DNA of 22,274 nucleotides from a virus, in IMG/VR virus record IMGVR_UViG_3300042905_002828, positions 1-22,274 of that record; one strand, 5' to 3'. Every line of letters begins with the position of its first letter. The stretch's first letter is position 1. The notes under the pieces are model-generated. The model did no database searches and was not told the DNA's origin. It worked only from the letters and a program-made list of their open reading frames with translations. Both the position numbers and the translations under genes were made by a program. Below are positions 6,563-22,168 of the stretch, piece by piece.

Positions 6563-7138
6563 ATGACCAGTTATACAGATTATTTTAATAATTTGCCTCA
6601 ATCGGTAAAAGACAAATTACCGGGTGATTTATTAGCAACAAATCCAAAAGAACCAGTAAATAAAAACAATCTAACAACAAATAAATTTTTGTTGTATATT
6701 CCTAGATTACCGACTGTAACATACTTTTGCCAAAGAGCAAATCTACCCTCTATATTCTTCGGTAATGCGGTACAAAGCACTCCAACGGGTCTAGGACCAA
6801 TCAGCAGACCAGGCACAAGACAAACCTATGAAGACTTACAGATTGGATTTATAGTTGATGAAGACATGCGTAACTGGTTAGAAGTTCATGATTGGATGAC
6901 TTCTTTGGGGTCTAATCTAGGCACAAAAGATGTTCTAAAAGAACACCAAAAAACATCAAATATTGCCTTATATGTTTTAAATAGTTCATATAATATAAAT
7001 CTAACAGTAACTTTTCACAATGCTTTTCCTATGTCTTTATCTGGTTTAGATTTTGATGTTTCTGTTCAAGATATAGATCCTATATTATCAACGGCCACAT
7101 TCTCATACACACATTACACAATAGCTCGCCAACAATAA
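6563..7138 (+). CDS. Tail-tube-fold virion protein, probably gp3-like tail completion/sheath stabiliser
   Basis: This 191-residue structural protein resembles the gp19-like family of tail tube and tail-terminating proteins. Visible blocks are NKFLLYIPRLPTVTYFCQRA, NLPSIFFGNAVQSTPTG, QIGFIVDEDMRNWLEVHDWM and a beta-rich C-terminal half (ALYVLNSSYNINLTVTFHNAFP). From memory of marine T4-like genomes, the gene between gp23 and uvsY is usually annotated gp3, which caps the tail tube and stabilises the sheath. The position fits, but I could not compare sequences. It has its own late promoter directly upstream and no Shine-Dalgarno. It could equally be an extra tube-like or baseplate-tube (gp48/gp54-like) protein. 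Confidence 0.75.
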   Translation: MTSYTDYFNNLPQSVKDKLPGDLLATNPKEPVNKNNLTTNKFLLYIPRLPTVTYFCQRANLPSIFFGNAVQSTPTGLGPISRPGTRQTYEDLQIGFIVDEDMRNWLEVHDWMTSLGSNLGTKDVLKEHQKTSNIALYVLNSSYNINLTVTFHNAFPMSLSGLDFDVSVQDIDPILSTATFSYTHYTIARQQ

Positions 7139-7140
7139 GC

Positions 7141-7168
7141 TACCATTTTATGGTATATCTGATATAAT
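7141..7168 (+). promoter_or_regulatory. Extended -10 promoter of uvsY with a dyad upstream
   Basis: TGATATAAT at 7160-7168 is an extended -10 with a perfect TATAAT hexamer. There is no recognisable -35. Instead a perfect inverted repeat, TACCAT-TTT-ATGGTA (7141-7155), covers the -35 to -20 zone and could be an operator or activator site. The predicted start is at 7175/7176, at the uvsY ATG. Confidence 0.6.
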
Positions 7169-7175
7169 ACACATT

Positions 7176-7616
7176 ATGAGCATATCATTAAATGAAATAA
7201 GAAAAATGGTTGAGTCTGACATTAAAATAGACAATACACAACTAGACAAGGAAAGTCTTAATATTCCACAAATACACAACAAGTATCTGTGTATTTTAAT
7301 GGATGAAAAACTTGTTCTTAAAAAATATGAAGGCGACTATAGCATTCTCAAGAAAAATAAATGGTTATATTACACAGGAAAATTATCAGAAGAACAACTC
7401 TCAGAATTAAACTGGGAACCTTTTGAACTCGCAATACTAAGACAGGATGTAGATAAGTTTTTAGATTCAGACAAAGAGTTAATTACTCTCAAAAACAAAA
7501 TAGAATATCAAAACGAAAAAATTAATTATTTAGAAAACATTGTAAAGGGAATAAGCAATCGTATTTGGAATATTCGTGCAGCAATTGATTGGATTAAATT
7601 CACACAAGGTCAATGA
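7176..7616 (+). CDS. uvsY: Recombination mediator UvsY
   Basis: UvsY loads the UvsX recombinase onto gp32-coated single-stranded DNA during recombination-dependent replication. The product is 146 residues (T4: 137). Family features are the N-terminal EIRKMVESDIKIDNTQLDKE, a central YYTGKLSEEQ segment like the YYSG of T4 UvsY, a charged coiled-coil-prone middle, and the C-terminal IKGISNRIW/IRAAIDWIKFTQG-type helix. The ATG sits seven bases after a TATAAT box with no Shine-Dalgarno, so the mRNA may be leaderless. The stop overlaps the uvsW start (ATGA), suggesting translational coupling. Confidence 0.9.
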   Translation: MSISLNEIRKMVESDIKIDNTQLDKESLNIPQIHNKYLCILMDEKLVLKKYEGDYSILKKNKWLYYTGKLSEEQLSELNWEPFELAILRQDVDKFLDSDKELITLKNKIEYQNEKINYLENIVKGISNRIWNIRAAIDWIKFTQGQ

Positions 7617-11601: not shown

Positions 11602-11714
11602 ACGAAGAAGAGGAAAAGAAAGAAGAAAAAAAGGAAGAATCTCCTATACTTTTCCGTTCAATGATTGTACCGGAGATCATACTAAATGATAAAGTTCAAG
11701 AAGGTAAGATTTAA
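11598..11714 (+). CDS. 38-codon small protein between gp47 and gp46
   Basis: A short frame starts at ATG 11598, overlapping the gp47 stop as ATGA. It runs to TAA at 11714, 29 bases into gp46. The peptide has a highly charged start (MNEEEEKKEEKKEE) and a hydrophobic second half (SPILFRSMIVPEIILNDKVQ). Without it, 84 bases would be left uncovered in an operon that is otherwise packed, and the stop-start coupling matches the neighbours. T4-like marine phages often carry a small ORF at this spot. Function is unknown; a link with the gp46/47 nuclease is only positional. Confidence 0.65.
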   Translation: MNEEEEKKEEKKEESPILFRSMIVPEIILNDKVQEGKI

Positions 11715-13401
11715 AAATTTTGGTTCGTTTGGTAACAATTTTACCGAACTAATTTTAGATAAAAACCCAACAACTTTAATTTGTGGAAACAATGGAAGCG
11801 GAAAATCTTTTGCTTTTCTTGATTCTATAACTTTTGCACTATTTGGAAAACCATTTAGAAAAATCAATATACCTCAATTGATAAATTCTATTAATAACAA
11901 ACAATGTTTAGTTGAGATTGACTTCTCAAAAGGAACAGATGAATATCTTATTCGGCGAGGATTAAACCCCAAAGTATTTGAAATATTTAAAAATGGAGAT
12001 CTTGTAAATCAGGATGCAAAAAGCATAGATTATCAAGATGTACTAGAAGAACAGATACTAAAGATGAACTATAAAACTTTTACTCAGGTAGTAATACTTG
12101 GTAGTTCGTCGTTTATTCCTTTTATGCAATTACCGGCAGCAGATCGTCGGGCAGTTATTGAAAATATTTTAGATATTAATGTCTTTACCACCATGAATGT
12201 TTTGCTTAAAGGTAAAATGCTTCAAATAAAAGAAATGGTAAAGGAAGTAAACAATAAGATAGAATTAGAAAAACAAAAAATAGAACTACATGAAAAATAT
12301 GTAACATCATTGGAAAAGAAAAGCAATGATGACATAAAATCTGCACAGTCTAAATTGGAAGAAATTAAAAAAGAAATAGTTACTTTGGAACAAGAAATCC
12401 AATCACTATCATCGTCAGTACAAGATAAATTAAACTCAATCTCAGATAAACCAAAGCATAGTAAAAAAATTGCAGAGATAGAGAAACTACAAACAAAAAT
12501 AACAATAAATTTAAATAACATTCAAAAAGATATTGATTTCTTTTCTAATAATATTTCTTGTCCATCCTGCAATCAGACGATAGATGAAAACACAAAAACT
12601 ATAGAGATTGGAAAAAGAAACAAGAAAGCTAAAGAGTATTCTGACGCATTAAAACAATTAGAAGATTCTTTTGAAGAAATCAATAAAAAAATGTCTGAGA
12701 TTGAGCAAGTAAGCAGAGAAATTACAGATATTAATTTAGAAATACTTCAAAAACAAACTTCTTTGACTAATGCTAAAAGATATTTAAAAACATCTTTAGA
12801 TGAATTAAATAAAACTACAAACTCTGTTGATGAAATTGATGAAGAAAAGAAAAAATTATCACAACATCAGTCCATACTAGAAACTTTAGAAAAAGAAAAA
12901 ACTGAATTGAAGGATGAGTTGTTGTATCACGAACACGCACATCTTCTTCTCAAAGATACGGGTGTAAAAGCAAAAATTATAAAGTACTATTTGCCTTATA
13001 TGAATAAGTACATTAATAAATTTTTGTCTTCTATGGATTTCTTTGCACAATTTACACTAGATGAAGATTTTAATGAGAAGATTAAAAGTAGACACCGTGA
13101 TGAATTCAGTTATATGAACTTTAGTGAAGGTGAAAAGATGCGTATCGACCTTGCTTTGCTTTTGGCTTGGAGAGAAATAGCAAGAGCAAAGAATAGTGTA
13201 AATTGTAATTTATTAATTCTTGACGAAGTATTTGATTCTTCTTTGGATTCTTTAGGTATGGATGAACTTATGAAGTTGTTGAATACTGTGAGTGATAAAT
13301 CAAACATATTTGTTATAAGTCACAAGTCAGATCAATTAATTGATAAATTTCAAAATTTGGTGTCATTTGAAAAGAAAAACAATTTTAGTAAAATATTATG
13401 A
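11686..13401 (+). CDS. gp46: gp46, Rad50/SbcC-like ATPase subunit
   Basis: This is the SMC-like ATPase partner of gp47 in DNA-end resection. Its 571 residues match T4 gp46 (560). Motifs in order are Walker A GNNGSGKS (34-41), the Q-loop region MNYKTFTQVVILGSSSF, two long coiled-coil arms flanking the zinc hook CPSC (292-295), the ABC signature FSEGEKMR (479-486), Walker B LLILDEVFD (509-517) and the H-loop VISHK (543-547). All look intact. The start MIKFKKVRFKNFGSF is the usual N-terminus. It overlaps the 38-codon ORF upstream and the PLP-enzyme gene downstream (ATGA). Confidence 0.96.
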   Translation: MIKFKKVRFKNFGSFGNNFTELILDKNPTTLICGNNGSGKSFAFLDSITFALFGKPFRKINIPQLINSINNKQCLVEIDFSKGTDEYLIRRGLNPKVFEIFKNGDLVNQDAKSIDYQDVLEEQILKMNYKTFTQVVILGSSSFIPFMQLPAADRRAVIENILDINVFTTMNVLLKGKMLQIKEMVKEVNNKIELEKQKIELHEKYVTSLEKKSNDDIKSAQSKLEEIKKEIVTLEQEIQSLSSSVQDKLNSISDKPKHSKKIAEIEKLQTKITINLNNIQKDIDFFSNNISCPSCNQTIDENTKTIEIGKRNKKAKEYSDALKQLEDSFEEINKKMSEIEQVSREITDINLEILQKQTSLTNAKRYLKTSLDELNKTTNSVDEIDEEKKKLSQHQSILETLEKEKTELKDELLYHEHAHLLLKDTGVKAKIIKYYLPYMNKYINKFLSSMDFFAQFTLDEDFNEKIKSRHRDEFSYMNFSEGEKMRIDLALLLAWREIARAKNSVNCNLLILDEVFDSSLDSLGMDELMKLLNTVSDKSNIFVISHKSDQLIDKFQNLVSFEKKNNFSKIL

Positions 13402-14129
13402 ACGACGAAATGAATCCATATCCTGTAATTGAAAAACATGAAGAATTTTATGTTGTTCGTGATGATTTGATTGATGGGGGATCAAAAACTAGATTTGTTC
13501 AAACTCTCATAAAAAATTCACCAGAGGAAGAGATGGTTTATGGTTCTTCACCCGCCACAGGTTATGCTCAAATTGCACTTGCAAGAGTGTGTAATCACTA
13601 TAACAAAAAATGTATATTGTTTATGGCAAAAAGAAAACCAGAAAATCTTCATCCCTACCAGTTGAAAGCAATCAAACATGGTGCTATAATTCACAATGTA
13701 GAAAACGGTATGCTTTCTGTGACTCAAAAAAGAGCAAGAGACTATGTTGCACAATTACCCAGTAATAGAAAATTGTTTCCTATTGGATTTGATTGTCCCG
13801 AAGTTGTGCAAGAAATATGTGATCTTGCAAAAAGTCTTCCAGTAAAACCAACAGAAGTATGGACAGTTGGTTCAAGCGGAACTTTAACTAGAGGATTACA
13901 ATTAGCATGGCCAAATGCAGATTTTCATTGTGTATCGGTAGGACATAAAATGGGGCAGAAGGAATTGGGTAGAGCAAAAATGTACAAGTGTGAACTTCCT
14001 TTCTTTGATGCAGTCGATACTGCTGATGCTCCGCCCTTTCCTTCTGCTCCAACCTACGATGCAAAAGCATGGAAGTTTATGAAACAATATGCAAAACCTG
14101 GCGCTTTGTTTTGGAATGTTGGAGCATGA
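13398..14129 (+). CDS. Short PLP-dependent fold-type II enzyme (ACC deaminase/D-Cys desulfhydrase-like)
   Basis: This 243-residue protein carries the hallmarks of fold-type II (tryptophan synthase beta-like) PLP enzymes. RDDLIDGGSKTRF (21-33) resembles the R-x-D-x-x-GGNK-x-RK motif of ACC deaminases and D-cysteine desulfhydrases, making Lys30 the probable Schiff-base lysine. VGSSGTLTRGLQLA (157-170) resembles the glycine-rich phosphate-binding loop. The S-N-H-type substrate loop is replaced by GSSPATGYAQIALARV (49-64), and the length is well below the usual ~325 residues, so substrate cannot be predicted. It is coupled by ATGA to gp46 and to the methyltransferase downstream. The tight pairing suggests a joint role, possibly DNA base modification, but amino-acid metabolism is an alternative. 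Confidence 0.8.
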   Translation: MNDEMNPYPVIEKHEEFYVVRDDLIDGGSKTRFVQTLIKNSPEEEMVYGSSPATGYAQIALARVCNHYNKKCILFMAKRKPENLHPYQLKAIKHGAIIHNVENGMLSVTQKRARDYVAQLPSNRKLFPIGFDCPEVVQEICDLAKSLPVKPTEVWTVGSSGTLTRGLQLAWPNADFHCVSVGHKMGQKELGRAKMYKCELPFFDAVDTADAPPFPSAPTYDAKAWKFMKQYAKPGALFWNVGA

Positions 14130-15703
14130 AACCTTTTTACGAAAGAAACGATTATCTTTTAAATCATAAAATAAATGTATTTTATGAGAATATTGTTTCA
14201 ATGACTGATAAAGAGTTTGAAACATGGGTTTCTGATATGCGTAAAGTTGTAATGGAAGCATGGAACACCCACAATTGTCCGCCAAGAACAGGTAAAAACG
14301 AACAAGACATTATTAATGAGTTTAATAAACTAACCGGATATCCTGTTAGTACATTTGAATTTGTTGATGAACTTACAGGAAATAAAGATGTAATAATAAA
14401 CAAATCTAGACTTGGTGCAGAAGTGGATCAATGGTTTCCAAATATGTACAAGACTAGAATAAACTATAGTGAAAACGATGTGGGTTATTCTATTTACGAT
14501 TTGTTTGCAAATGATAAATTTTTACCTAAAATGATAAAGGGTGCTCGTCGTCATATTAGACGAGATTCTTTATATACATTTGCATGTTCGGCAATTAAAA
14601 ATGATACAAAGTATGCTATCGTATCTGTATCTACAGGCAATGAGTGGTTAACTGCTTATTTTGGCAATCCATCAATATTTAAAGATCACGATTTTATTTT
14701 AGATCAGCATGATGATGAAGATGGATTAAATACTGGTTATTATCAGATTGAACAGTCTAAAATACTTTCTTTAACTAAAGATGATTTTTTGAAATGGAAA
14801 CCCAAATTATCTTATAGACACTATTCAACTTTTGATTCGGAAAATTTAAGTGATGATAAAATATTCAGAATTCGTGTTTATGAAAAAGGACATAAAGTTT
14901 TTCCAAAATGCTTTCCCAGTTTCAGAATAGGATACATACAACCGGCAGTAAATTTTCCACCACTAACAGCGAGATATCTTTATGAAAAATACACGGAATC
15001 GTTTATGGACCAAGATAGAATTGTCATCTATGATCCTTCTTCTGGCTGGGGTGGACGCATACTTGGTGCGATGTCTGTCTCGGATTCTAGAAATATTTTA
15101 TATGTCGGAACTGATCCTAATGTGGATAATTTCGATAATTCTCTTGTCGGTGGCAGCAAGTATTCTAGTATTGCTGATTTTTATAATACGAGAACTTATA
15201 GAGGAAATTCTTTCTTCTCCAAAACTCACGAATACGAAATTTTTTCGTCGGGGTCAGAGGTAATTCACAAAGATAAAAAATTTAAGAAATATAAAGGTAA
15301 AGTAGATTTAGTATTTACTTCTCCTCCATATTTTAATAGAGAAGCATATTCAGATGATTCTAATCAATCATACAAGAAATTTAGTAATTATGATTCTTGG
15401 GTAAAAGGATTTTTACGCCCAACTCTCGAAACTTGTGTTGAATATCTCAAAAACAATAGATATCTTTTGTGGAATATTGCCGATATTCAGGTGTCGGGGG
15501 AATATCTACCTTTAGAAAAAGACTCAAGAGATATTTTAGAATCTTTGGGAATGAAATATATCGAAACATTAAAAATGGCAATGGAAGGAATGCCCGGGCA
15601 AAACAGACTAGATGAAAACGGAAAACCAAAATGTAAAAACTTTTGTAAAGTAAATGGAAATTATTTGAAATACGAACCAGTTTTTGTATACTATAAGCCA
15701 TGA
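14126..15703 (+). CDS. DNA methyltransferase-like protein (SPPY motif) with large N-terminal domain
   Basis: The start at ATG 14126 overlaps the PLP-gene stop (ATGA); an in-frame ATG at 14069 lies inside that gene and is less likely. The 525-residue product has an uncharacterised N-terminal ~270 residues. This is followed by FPPLTARYLYEKY, the AdoMet-binding motif YDPSSGWGGR (302-311) with GTDPN (328-332), and the catalytic motif TSPPYF (398-403). SPPY is typical of amino-group (N4-cytosine or N6-adenine) DNA methyltransferases. LLWNIADI follows as a later strand. No restriction partner is nearby. Probable roles are self-modification against host restriction or a modification step together with the PLP enzyme. 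The target is unknown. Confidence 0.85.
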   Translation: MKPFYERNDYLLNHKINVFYENIVSMTDKEFETWVSDMRKVVMEAWNTHNCPPRTGKNEQDIINEFNKLTGYPVSTFEFVDELTGNKDVIINKSRLGAEVDQWFPNMYKTRINYSENDVGYSIYDLFANDKFLPKMIKGARRHIRRDSLYTFACSAIKNDTKYAIVSVSTGNEWLTAYFGNPSIFKDHDFILDQHDDEDGLNTGYYQIEQSKILSLTKDDFLKWKPKLSYRHYSTFDSENLSDDKIFRIRVYEKGHKVFPKCFPSFRIGYIQPAVNFPPLTARYLYEKYTESFMDQDRIVIYDPSSGWGGRILGAMSVSDSRNILYVGTDPNVDNFDNSLVGGSKYSSIADFYNTRTYRGNSFFSKTHEYEIFSSGSEVIHKDKKFKKYKGKVDLVFTSPPYFNREAYSDDSNQSYKKFSNYDSWVKGFLRPTLETCVEYLKNNRYLLWNIADIQVSGEYLPLEKDSRDILESLGMKYIETLKMAMEGMPGQNRLDENGKPKCKNFCKVNGNYLKYEPVFVYYKP

Positions 15704-16818
15704 AATCTGAAACAGAAGAGATTTTTTACGGTAAGCAACCAAATTGGAAGCATTGGAAACCGGAAGATTTTAAAGACGAAGAAAAAGTTTTTTGGTCTAT
15801 TGCTTTTGCCTTAAATTGGTATAATGTAAAATATACAGATAGAGATTACAAGAAAAGCGTAATCGACTATATGGAAAAATTTAAAGTTAAAGGCAAGGAA
15901 TTGGTTGTAAAGGTTCCTGTTGATAACTTTACATTTAGACTTATTGGTGGTAAGTGTCAAGCGGCTTTAGCACATTGTATTCTTCCCGATAAAGCAAACG
16001 ATGCTATTAAAAATGGCATCTCTGATCTTATTCGTATAGGTTCTTCTATTAAAGATACAGAAATTCCGATGATATCGGTTCGTGAAAGAGTCATGGAACA
16101 GGCAATGGATTTGTCTGCCGTAATAGAGGGAGAGGTTGACAAATATCAACTCTATGTTAGGGGAAAATATTCAAATTATAAACAATTTGATGTTGAATCT
16201 TGGTTGGCAGAAAACGAACCAAGTGCCATGCACTGTGAATTTATGTTACAGATATTTGAAAGATCTTTGAATGAGTATAAATTAGTTTTAGCAGGCACAG
16301 ATCCACAATTAAAAGAAGCATATTCACATTTTACAAAAAAACAACTTCAAAAGGTTCATGATTTTTATAAAAACATTTGTGAATTTTTGAAAGTTCGAAT
16401 TATTATTGCCAAAAGTAATAGAAAACCAAGAAAACCAAGAAAAAAGAAACCAGAAAAGGTTGTTAAGAAATTAAAGTATCTTGCAAAGGATACAAATAGT
16501 GGTATTGAATCTATTATGCCAGAAAGCATAGTTGGTTGTATGACTTTGATTACATTTAATGTAAAAAACAAAAAAGCAACTATATTTAAGGCAGATGAAA
16601 ATAGTTCAGGTATTTCAGTTAAAGGCACAACACTAATAGGATTTTCTGAAAAAGATTCAGTAGAAAAAACTATTAAAAAGCCTGTAGAATTTATGACAAA
16701 AGCCAAAAATGAAGGTATTAGAAGTATAAATAACTATTGGAAGAGTGTTAAGACTAAAGAAAATACACCTAACGGTAGAATCAATGCAAACATTTTGATT
16801 TTGCGAGCCTTTAAATGA
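15700..16818 (+). CDS. T4-like phage protein with basic linker, function unknown
   Basis: This 372-residue protein resembles a hypothetical protein I recall from T4-like marine phages, but I cannot name its function. The N-terminal half is helical (KPEDFKDEEKVFWSIAFALN, then a region around 75-235). Residues 239-258 form a very basic linker (RKPRKPRKKKPEKVVKK). The C-terminal ~115 residues form a compact beta-rich domain with GIESIMPESIVGCMTLITFN, ISVKGTTLIGFSE and NGRINANILILRAF. The basic linker suggests nucleic-acid binding. It overlaps the methyltransferase stop by ATGA and the next gene by ATGA, so it is co-translated with them. A link to DNA modification is positional only. Confidence 0.85.
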   Translation: MKSETEEIFYGKQPNWKHWKPEDFKDEEKVFWSIAFALNWYNVKYTDRDYKKSVIDYMEKFKVKGKELVVKVPVDNFTFRLIGGKCQAALAHCILPDKANDAIKNGISDLIRIGSSIKDTEIPMISVRERVMEQAMDLSAVIEGEVDKYQLYVRGKYSNYKQFDVESWLAENEPSAMHCEFMLQIFERSLNEYKLVLAGTDPQLKEAYSHFTKKQLQKVHDFYKNICEFLKVRIIIAKSNRKPRKPRKKKPEKVVKKLKYLAKDTNSGIESIMPESIVGCMTLITFNVKNKKATIFKADENSSGISVKGTTLIGFSEKDSVEKTIKKPVEFMTKAKNEGIRSINNYWKSVKTKENTPNGRINANILILRAFK

Positions 16819-20667: not shown

Positions 20668-21510
20668 ATGGAAAAAATGCAAGCAATTGGGGAACCGTTT
20701 CCGGTTCAGTATTCATCCTGCTCAGATAAAAAACCAAAATACTTTGAATGGACTAACGAACATTGTCCCATTAAAGTGTTTATGGATCAAGCAATAGCAC
20801 CGGGAATGAATTATACAAAGAAACCCGGAGATGCTAAAAAAGTAGCATGGATTTGTGAGTCACGCGCAATATTTCATTCATGGGCTTTTCCTAGAGATTT
20901 ATGGGAAAAGCACTTAGATAAAATAGTCGATTCATATGATGAAATATATGTTTCAGATAAGCATTGGTGTCAGTTTTCCCCAAAAATAAAATTTTGTTTT
21001 GCGGGAAGCAATGCTGCGTGGGTCAAAGAACCTAAAATATACGAAAAAACTAAACTAACATCAATGATTGCTTCTGCAAAGGTGATTACACATGGTCATC
21101 AAATTAGACACTCTATTGCAAACAAATTTAAAGATAAAATAGATGTCTATGGAGGTGCCGCTGGTTCTAAAAGATTTGGTGGAGGAACCTGGCCAGATAA
21201 ATCTGAAGCAATGAATGATTATATGTTTTCTATAGTTATAGAGAACGATAGTTATTCGACATATTTCACAGAAAAAATTACAGACTGTTTTGCAACGGGA
21301 ACGATACCAATTTACTGGGGTGCTCCTGAAATCGGAGACTACTTCAACATGGATGGAATAATTTTGTATACGCCAGATTTTGACATTTCAATGTTGACAC
21401 CTGAACTTTATAAAAGTAAAATGAGTGCTGTTTTGGATAATCTTGAGCGAGTTAAATCTATGGACATGGCTGATGATTTTTTATATAAATTAATTAACAA
21501 TGAAAACTGA
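20668..21510 (+). CDS. GT10 family glycosyltransferase (alpha-1,3-fucosyltransferase-like)
   Basis: This 280-residue protein has the C-terminal donor-binding signature of family 10 fucosyltransferases: FSIVIEND (187-194), YFTEKITDCFATGTIPIYWG (199-218) and the following APEIGDYF. The N-terminal half is a GT-B-like domain with VAWICESR (59-66) and YDEIYVSDK. There is no membrane anchor, as in bacterial and phage members. GGAG at 20654-20657 is the RBS. Transfer of fucose or a related deoxyhexose from a GDP-sugar is the family reaction; the acceptor (host lipopolysaccharide, virion glycan or DNA) is unknown. It overlaps the next gene by 11 bases. Confidence 0.9.
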   Translation: MEKMQAIGEPFPVQYSSCSDKKPKYFEWTNEHCPIKVFMDQAIAPGMNYTKKPGDAKKVAWICESRAIFHSWAFPRDLWEKHLDKIVDSYDEIYVSDKHWCQFSPKIKFCFAGSNAAWVKEPKIYEKTKLTSMIASAKVITHGHQIRHSIANKFKDKIDVYGGAAGSKRFGGGTWPDKSEAMNDYMFSIVIENDSYSTYFTEKITDCFATGTIPIYWGAPEIGDYFNMDGIILYTPDFDISMLTPELYKSKMSAVLDNLERVKSMDMADDFLYKLINNEN

Positions 21511-22168
21511 AATTATATCATTTTTTTCTGACATAGACGGGACTAGTTATTATAGTGACCATGCGTTTAGACTTAGAGAAGAATGTTTCAAACATAATGT
21601 TCCATATGATTTTAGACACATGGAATCTACGGGAGACTATAGATTAAATTGTCTAAGAAAACCTCAATTTATTTTATCTCTTTTAGAAGAAAAGAAAAAA
21701 CCTTTAGTATGGATGGACATTGACAGTATTATTCATAAGGAATTATTGGCTTTTGATCACTTATCAGAAAATAATGCAGATATAGGATTTGCTTATCCTA
21801 TAACGAAACCGGATCAAATTAATATGTCAAGTCCTAAAGCATCTCCAATTTTTTGCAATTATAACGAAAAAGTTATCAAATTTTTACAAACATGGATTGC
21901 TAATTGTGAAGAAAGTTTGAAAAACGGTGAACATTTTTTCGATCATGAAATTTTATTAATGCGAGTTTTACCAAAAGTTAAAGAAATAAAAATTGGTATA
22001 TTGCCAATTAATTATTGTGTTTGGCCAAATAAATGTCCAAAAGGTATAGATCCGTATATAACAATGGGAATTGCAGATGGAAAATCAAAAGAAAAGAATT
22101 TGAGAGAATTGGCAAAAGTATTAAATATGAGCGAACATCATATTTTATTCAATTTAAATAAGGTATAA
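21500..22168 (+). CDS. GT-A-type nucleotide-sugar transferase-like protein
   Basis: This 222-residue protein has features of small GT-A nucleotide-diphospho-sugar transferases: CLRKPQFILSLLEEKKKPL followed by VWMDIDSII with a D-I-D metal/donor motif (73-75), ADIGFAYPI and an N-x-C-V-W-P segment near the end. The ATG at 21500 lies inside the end of the GT10 gene, so the two are translationally coupled and probably act on the same glycan. No signal peptide or membrane segment is visible. Sugar donor and acceptor are not predictable. Confidence 0.75.
   Translation: MKTEIISFFSDIDGTSYYSDHAFRLREECFKHNVPYDFRHMESTGDYRLNCLRKPQFILSLLEEKKKPLVWMDIDSIIHKELLAFDHLSENNADIGFAYPITKPDQINMSSPKASPIFCNYNEKVIKFLQTWIANCEESLKNGEHFFDHEILLMRVLPKVKEIKIGILPINYCVWPNKCPKGIDPYITMGIADGKSKEKNLRELAKVLNMSEHHILFNLNKV

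Follow-up and report, generated by a model that had tools for sequence, protein, structure and literature searches.

The 5-(2-aminoethyl)dU phages M6 and SN1 carry a thymidine hypermodification cassette in which a PLP enzyme (gp52 in M6) is accompanied by a hydroxymethylase, a kinase, aGPT-Pplases and a radical SAM protein. In Synechococcus phage S-B43, carboxymethylcytosine is the product of the CmoA/CmoX/CmoY system; CmoX, an SPPC C5-cytosine enzyme that uses Cx-SAM, pairs with an enzyme that makes the SAM variant or elaborates the adduct, and often lies near ParBc genes (PMC12783734). At the right end of the Mu prophage, Com is followed by a DNA-modification gene, Mom. ParB-fused adenine methylases are also known (PMC5512222), and the class 1b SpeD of Croceibacter phage P2559S has been shown to decarboxylate SAM (Li et al., 2023; PMC9992855).

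We examined a pair of genes, encoding a PLP enzyme and an SPPY methyltransferase-fold protein (MTase), in a marine T4-like phage record of 22,274 bp (the window, meaning the whole stretch of DNA that was analysed). The PLP enzyme is homologous to M6 gp52, with which it has in common the predicted Schiff-base Lys and a C-terminal YDxKAW...FWNxG signature, at just 25-28% identity. The 30.8 kb of M6 sequence that we examined contained no SPPY transferase, and we found no match to the hydroxymethylase, kinase, aGPT-Pplase or radical SAM protein among the genes scanned in the window, a genome fragment of 22 kb. The MTase is, like CmoX, a phage DNA transferase of the PP-motif family, but its family carries SPPY or CPPY and has PLP enzymes or SpeD as partners. 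C5 chemistry of the CmoX type was rejected for the window MTase, as the catalytic Cys of SPPC is absent and TSPPY is invariant in 19 of its relatives.

An overlapping gene pair in a T4-like replication operon

Four genes (gp46, PLP, MTase and phrog_11903) are chained by 4-nt ATGA overlaps. The features of the locus are as follows.

11686..13401, + strand: gp46-like SMC-type ATPase, overlapping the PLP gene by ATGA (operon context; ORF and profile match)
13398..14129, + strand: PLP enzyme of fold-type II (D-cysteine desulfhydrase/ACC deaminase-like), 243 aa (ORF, Pfam/PHROG, AlphaFold, fold search)
13485..13487, + strand: codon of Lys30, the predicted PLP Schiff-base lysine (GGSK-R), invariant (alignment)
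14126..14129, + strand: ATGA overlap of PLP stop and MTase start (sequence)
14126..15703, + strand: SPPY methyltransferase-fold protein, 525 aa (residues ~1-270, unknown domain; 275-525, catalytic domain)
15032..15067, + strand: motif I, DPSSGWGGRILG (alignment)
15056-15058, + strand: codon of Arg311 in motif I of the MTase (alignment)
15317..15352, + strand: motif IV, TSPPYFNREAYS, with Tyr402, Glu406 and Tyr408 invariant (alignment)
15700..16818, + strand: phrog_11903 protein, overlapping the MTase gene by ATGA (PHROG match)

We set the MTase start at 14126 by conservation; a longer form starting at 14069 is not conserved among relatives. A preliminary description of this DNA had joined the two genes through an ATGA, and the ORFs at 13398-14129 and 14126-15703 do overlap in this way. 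It had also placed them in a recombination/replication operon, in agreement with profile matches to gp47/gp46-like genes upstream and to RNase H, the sliding clamp gp45 and a clamp loader downstream. The phrog_11903 gene was found in 85 T4-like relatives, and its product is possibly an accessory to the pair.

The PLP enzyme matches phrog_7093 (E 1.8e-44) and, below the Pfam cut-off, PF00291 (E 7.8e-5). Since single-sequence searches of the PDB returned only weak or spurious matches, we compared folds in their place. The AlphaFold model (pLDDT 93, pTM 0.88) has a type II fold, and the closest solved folds found with Foldseek are D-cysteine desulfhydrase (E 1e-10; TM 0.66-0.76 by query length) and an ACC deaminase homologue. 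These proteins have 317-335 aa and are 75-95 residues longer than the window enzyme, close to the shortfall of about 80 residues that had been claimed; the short length is a trait of the whole family. Lys30, in a GGxKxR context, does not vary in any relative, M6 gp52 included, and distant relatives, again including gp52 of Pseudomonas phage M6, keep both a glycine-rich SSGT loop and the C-terminal signature.

The canonical substrate loop of the fold-type II group is of the SNQT type, with Asn/Ser. In the alignment of relatives, this loop is absent from the PLP family: the conserved loop after strand 2 reads SSPATGYAQ in the window enzyme and takes SSPATGYAQ or ATPxEGGAQ forms across the family, bearing out an earlier claim that the substrate loop is altered. 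One explanation for the pair is that the PLP enzyme links an amino acid to a DNA base by beta-substitution, with chemistry like that of cysteine synthase, and that the MTase acts on that base or one next to it. Beta-replacement is known chemistry of fold-type II enzymes, and both the nearest folds (D-cysteine desulfhydrase and ACC deaminase) and the PAPS-reductase-like genes near some pairs would fit it. However, the usual Asn of the substrate loop is replaced, we know of no precedent for beta-substitution by a PLP enzyme on DNA, and we regard this explanation as improbable.

By fold search, residues 275-525 of the MTase form a class I SAM-dependent fold. The N-terminal ~270 residues have no match in Pfam, PHROG or PDB sequence families, consistent with their earlier designation as an unknown domain. 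The match to PF01555 (E 3.7e-8; 34 bits against a cut-off of 26.7) includes the SPPY/DPPY motif, and the fold and SPPY motif are common to the MTase and the N4/N6 amino DNA methyltransferases. Unlike in PF01555 enzymes, motif I of the MTase precedes motif IV; the PF01555 profile aligns to the MTase family in swapped order, and the family is therefore circularly permuted relative to that profile. The MTase also differs from those enzymes in having an Arg in the motif I loop and an invariant Glu and Tyr (Glu406 and Tyr408) after SPPY. The Arg is present in PLP-linked and partnerless relatives and lost in SpeD-linked ones, with Arg311 of the window family aligning two columns off the Arg of the ParB family. 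From the sequence, we infer that this residue may contact the SAM carboxylate. A match to the nocardicin acp-transferase, at rank 46 of the fold search, was discounted as a generic class I match.

Recurrent pairing of PLP enzymes with transferases

We scanned IMG/VR with the MTase and with alignments of the PLP enzyme, scanned GTDB genomes as well, and counted neighbours by six-frame HMM search. Among 148 distinct PLP enzymes, 134 adjoin or are fused to a transferase: 78 follow it, 53 precede it and 3 form one protein with it. Loci were sampled by similarity, and some counts still include near-identical phages. The 14 near which no transferase was seen include about six at contig ends and two from M6-like phages. 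Of the 149 loci that had been found through the PLP enzyme and were not cut short, 144 had a same-strand MTase no more than 2.5 kb away. A -4 overlap joins 95 of the 131 unfused pairs. Such adjacency is far above chance, and this holds in unrelated phages.

The pair occurs in T4-like phages, in Mu-like prophages at the com-mom site, and in siphophages. In the right ends of two Mu-like prophages (L135 and L136), Com (PF10122) is followed by the transferase and then the PLP enzyme; the arrangement is that of Mu, with the MTase and PLP pair standing in place of Mom. We found no relatives of the PLP enzyme of L136 on the plasmids searched. Two other records (L078 and L133) have the order MTase-PLP in a phage context other than the T4-like replication operon, a Microcystis phage has the order ParB-MTase-PLP, and mycobacteriophage Vincenzo provides a further context. 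PAPS-reductase-like genes were seen near some pairs.

The PLP domain of Erythrobacter phages R6L/ZS04 and of Pseudanabaena phage Pam4 lies within the transferase itself: motif I (341/348) comes before the inserted domain and motif IV (661/685) after it. The inserted domains belong to two divergent subfamilies that are barely alike. The open literature that we searched contained no account of a PLP enzyme inserted in a DNA methyltransferase fold, and although such an absence is weak evidence, the arrangement is to our knowledge undescribed so far.

The fusions also bear on whether the PLP gene has an auxiliary metabolic role with no connection to DNA and became paired by operon hitch-hiking. 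Its fold, and the annotation of such genes as threonine dehydratase or D-cysteine desulfhydrase, would suit that role. The pair nevertheless recurs in several unrelated contexts, in both orders and as a single protein, and because PLP/transferase fusions exist, we disfavour a generic metabolic role and consider it highly improbable.

Pairing is asymmetric. The preliminary description had proposed that the two genes are functionally coupled and that independent occurrence would speak against this. PLP enzymes are rarely found apart from a transferase, as coupling predicts, but the transferase often occurs on its own: no PLP gene lies beside the T4-like MTases of five records (L035, L036, L042, L048 and L050), and many ParB-MTases adjoin terminase genes and have no partner. 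With 134 of 148 PLP enzymes beside or within a transferase, functional coupling of the two proteins is well supported, and the module is real and recurrent.

A sister clade linked to SAM decarboxylase

Both Pseudomonas phage ZRG1 and P2559S have a SpeD gene that overlaps the end of the ParB-MTase gene (PF02675, E 1.6e-23 and 2.1e-19). SpeD, a pyruvoyl enzyme that is not homologous to the PLP enzyme, takes the position next to the sister transferase that PLP has in the other pairs. The authors of the P2559S study read this enzyme as part of polyamine metabolism, and the word methyltransferase is absent from the main text of their paper (PMC9992855). Searching 18 SpeD-linked records, including the complete ZRG1 and P2559S genomes, we found no homologue of SpeE (spermidine synthase), and these phages would therefore have decarboxylated SAM without a phage-encoded polyamine synthase. 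Host SpeE could use the decarboxylated SAM.

Motif I reads FAGD[ST]xFG in all 47 scored MTases with an adjacent SpeD, whereas SpeD adjoins none of 103 MTases of the FAGGSVRG type, among them all PLP-linked MTases with this motif; because the motif switched only once on the tree, this split does not amount to 150 independent observations. The SpeD-linked clade has a further Gly-to-Asp change at alignment column 376. The motif I switch may be unrelated to the cofactor. The window MTase lacks the traits of this clade, having GWGGR and a PLP partner, and no SpeD was found in the window-like records searched. T4-like records of 156, 142 and 128 kb likewise contained no SpeD; the sole match elsewhere was in L078, where an AdoMet_dc gene lies ~450 nt after the MTase-PLP pair and all three genes fall within 3 kb. 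As L078 has both partners, we rejected strict exclusivity of PLP and SpeD.

These observations bear on two further explanations. In one, the PLP enzyme supplies the cofactor: it would turn SAM, or a precursor, into an uncommon donor (decarboxylated or deaminated SAM, for instance) for the transferase next to it, and would be the functional equivalent of SpeD. The presence of SpeD at the corresponding position next to the sister transferase favours this possibility, and there is a published precedent in CmoX, a phage transferase that uses Cx-SAM made by the phage (PMC12783734). However, the tree requires at least 10 gains or losses of PLP, during which the MTase pocket stayed unchanged, and PLP-linked transferases, unlike SpeD-linked ones, keep the motif of their partnerless relatives. 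In addition, the M6 homologue of the PLP enzyme belongs to a post-replicative DNA-modification cassette. Because the pocket motif does not track PLP, we rank this explanation second and consider it rather unlikely.

In the other, the transferase is an ordinary N4-cytosine/N6-adenine methyltransferase and the PLP enzyme either supports it, for example by removing homocysteine or products derived from SAH, or carries out a separate modification. The PF01555 match and SPPY motif agree with such a role, as does the existence of ParB-fused adenine methylases (PMC5512222); the many relatives that lack a partner may themselves be ordinary methyltransferases. This would leave unexplained both the insertion of PLP inside the transferase and the fact that in the sister clade this position holds an enzyme proven to be a SAM decarboxylase, and we also judge it unlikely.

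A proposed route to amino-acid-derived DNA modification

The homologue in the M6/SN1 cassette and the position after Com, at the mom site, agree with the proposal in the preliminary description that the pair modifies DNA bases. Its alternatives of an amino-acid-derived modification or an unusual cofactor supply are supported as an idea, the sister clade being linked to a SAM decarboxylase. Its statement that the pair does not serve simple restriction evasion is unsupported as worded; because the pair occupies the mom-locus position, restriction evasion is a likely benefit.

Taken together, the comparisons suggest that an amine from an amino acid, and not a plain methyl, may be attached to phage DNA. 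Our tentative preference, which we hold at somewhat below even confidence, is that the transferase family moves the amino-acid side of SAM and that the PLP enzyme then processes the transferred 3-amino-3-carboxypropyl (acp) group, probably by decarboxylation. Action after transfer is favoured over cofactor supply because the MTase pocket did not change over the 10 or more times that PLP came or went. We are more doubtful of the wider proposal that a widespread phage family of DNA-modifying enzymes moves the amino-acid side of SAM, and not methyl, to DNA bases, and that the carboxyl group is removed either by SpeD, from the cofactor, or by PLP, from the DNA.

For acp or aminopropyl transfer, decarboxylation, the target base and protection, we infer the following route. 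The SPPY protein, as a class I SAM-dependent transferase, would flip a DNA base and move acp from SAM onto an exocyclic amine, rather than only a methyl. SAM would be the expected donor for those sister enzymes in which the SAM loop keeps its Arg, and the same geometry could allow acp transfer. On the base, acp would be an alpha-amino acid, the substrate type ascribed to the M6 PLP enzyme, which was reportedly identified as a decarboxylase by Lee and colleagues in 2022. The PLP enzyme of the pair would take the base-linked acp as its substrate, and decarboxylation to 3-aminopropyl is the most likely reaction. Aminopropyl transfer is the expected use of decarboxylated SAM, as in spermidine synthase. 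In the sister clade, the order would be reversed: SpeD would decarboxylate SAM, and the transferase would then move aminopropyl to give the same product. The positively charged side chain may shield phage DNA from nucleases.

If this proposal is correct, DNA bases in these phages would carry 3-amino-3-carboxypropyl or 3-aminopropyl, a new type of DNA chemistry in which the amino-acid side of SAM is attacked. Of the many phage genes now annotated as DNA methyltransferases, a part would be reassigned. Some phage SpeD genes, so far read as polyamine genes, would gain a role in DNA modification, which would explain why some phages encode a SAM decarboxylase without a spermidine synthase.

Genes adjoining or replacing the PLP gene

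In some operons of related phage and prophage loci (L numbers, each with its own coordinates), the PLP gene is adjoined by an entry for an Asp/Asn-hydroxylase-like 2OG oxygenase protein:

L134:1790-4396, oxygenase entry
L126:4460-5617, oxygenase entry
L129:4799-5947, oxygenase entry

A PAPS-reductase-like gene separates PLP and MTase in L134; an aspartate/ornithine carbamoyltransferase gene lies 3' of PLP at L126:6711-7694, where no MTase was seen. At L032:6384-7965 and L033:5946-7527, the position of the window PLP gene is taken by a second, degenerate MTase with a TSCPD motif and a different PLP enzyme, which is longer (318-325 aa; ~25% identical). Only L078 contained both partners, PLP and SpeD-family, with the SpeD-family ORF (7120-7539) a short distance downstream of the MTase-PLP pair.

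Ends of the window

Two ORFs (407-1216 and 1242-1991) form one split portal-like coding sequence, which we liken to gp20; the split may reflect a frameshift or assembly error. After the replication genes, positions 20668-22168 hold a GT10 fucosyltransferase-like gene followed by a protein of unassigned function.

Possible further module components

A glutamine-synthetase-like gene recurs within or beside the PLP-MTase operon, at five loci:

L032:9607-10704, glutamine-synthetase-like
L033:9617-10708, glutamine-synthetase-like
L048:9577-10698, glutamine-synthetase-like
L084:6642-7775, glutamine-synthetase-like
L127:6703-7764, glutamine-synthetase-like

We speculate that GS-family gamma-glutamyl-amine ligases (PuuA type) might cap an aminopropyl amine. 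In most T4-like relatives, a conserved protein of unassigned function (phrog_11903; window 15700-16818) is ATGA-linked 3' of the MTase, and is a candidate third component of the PLP-MTase module.
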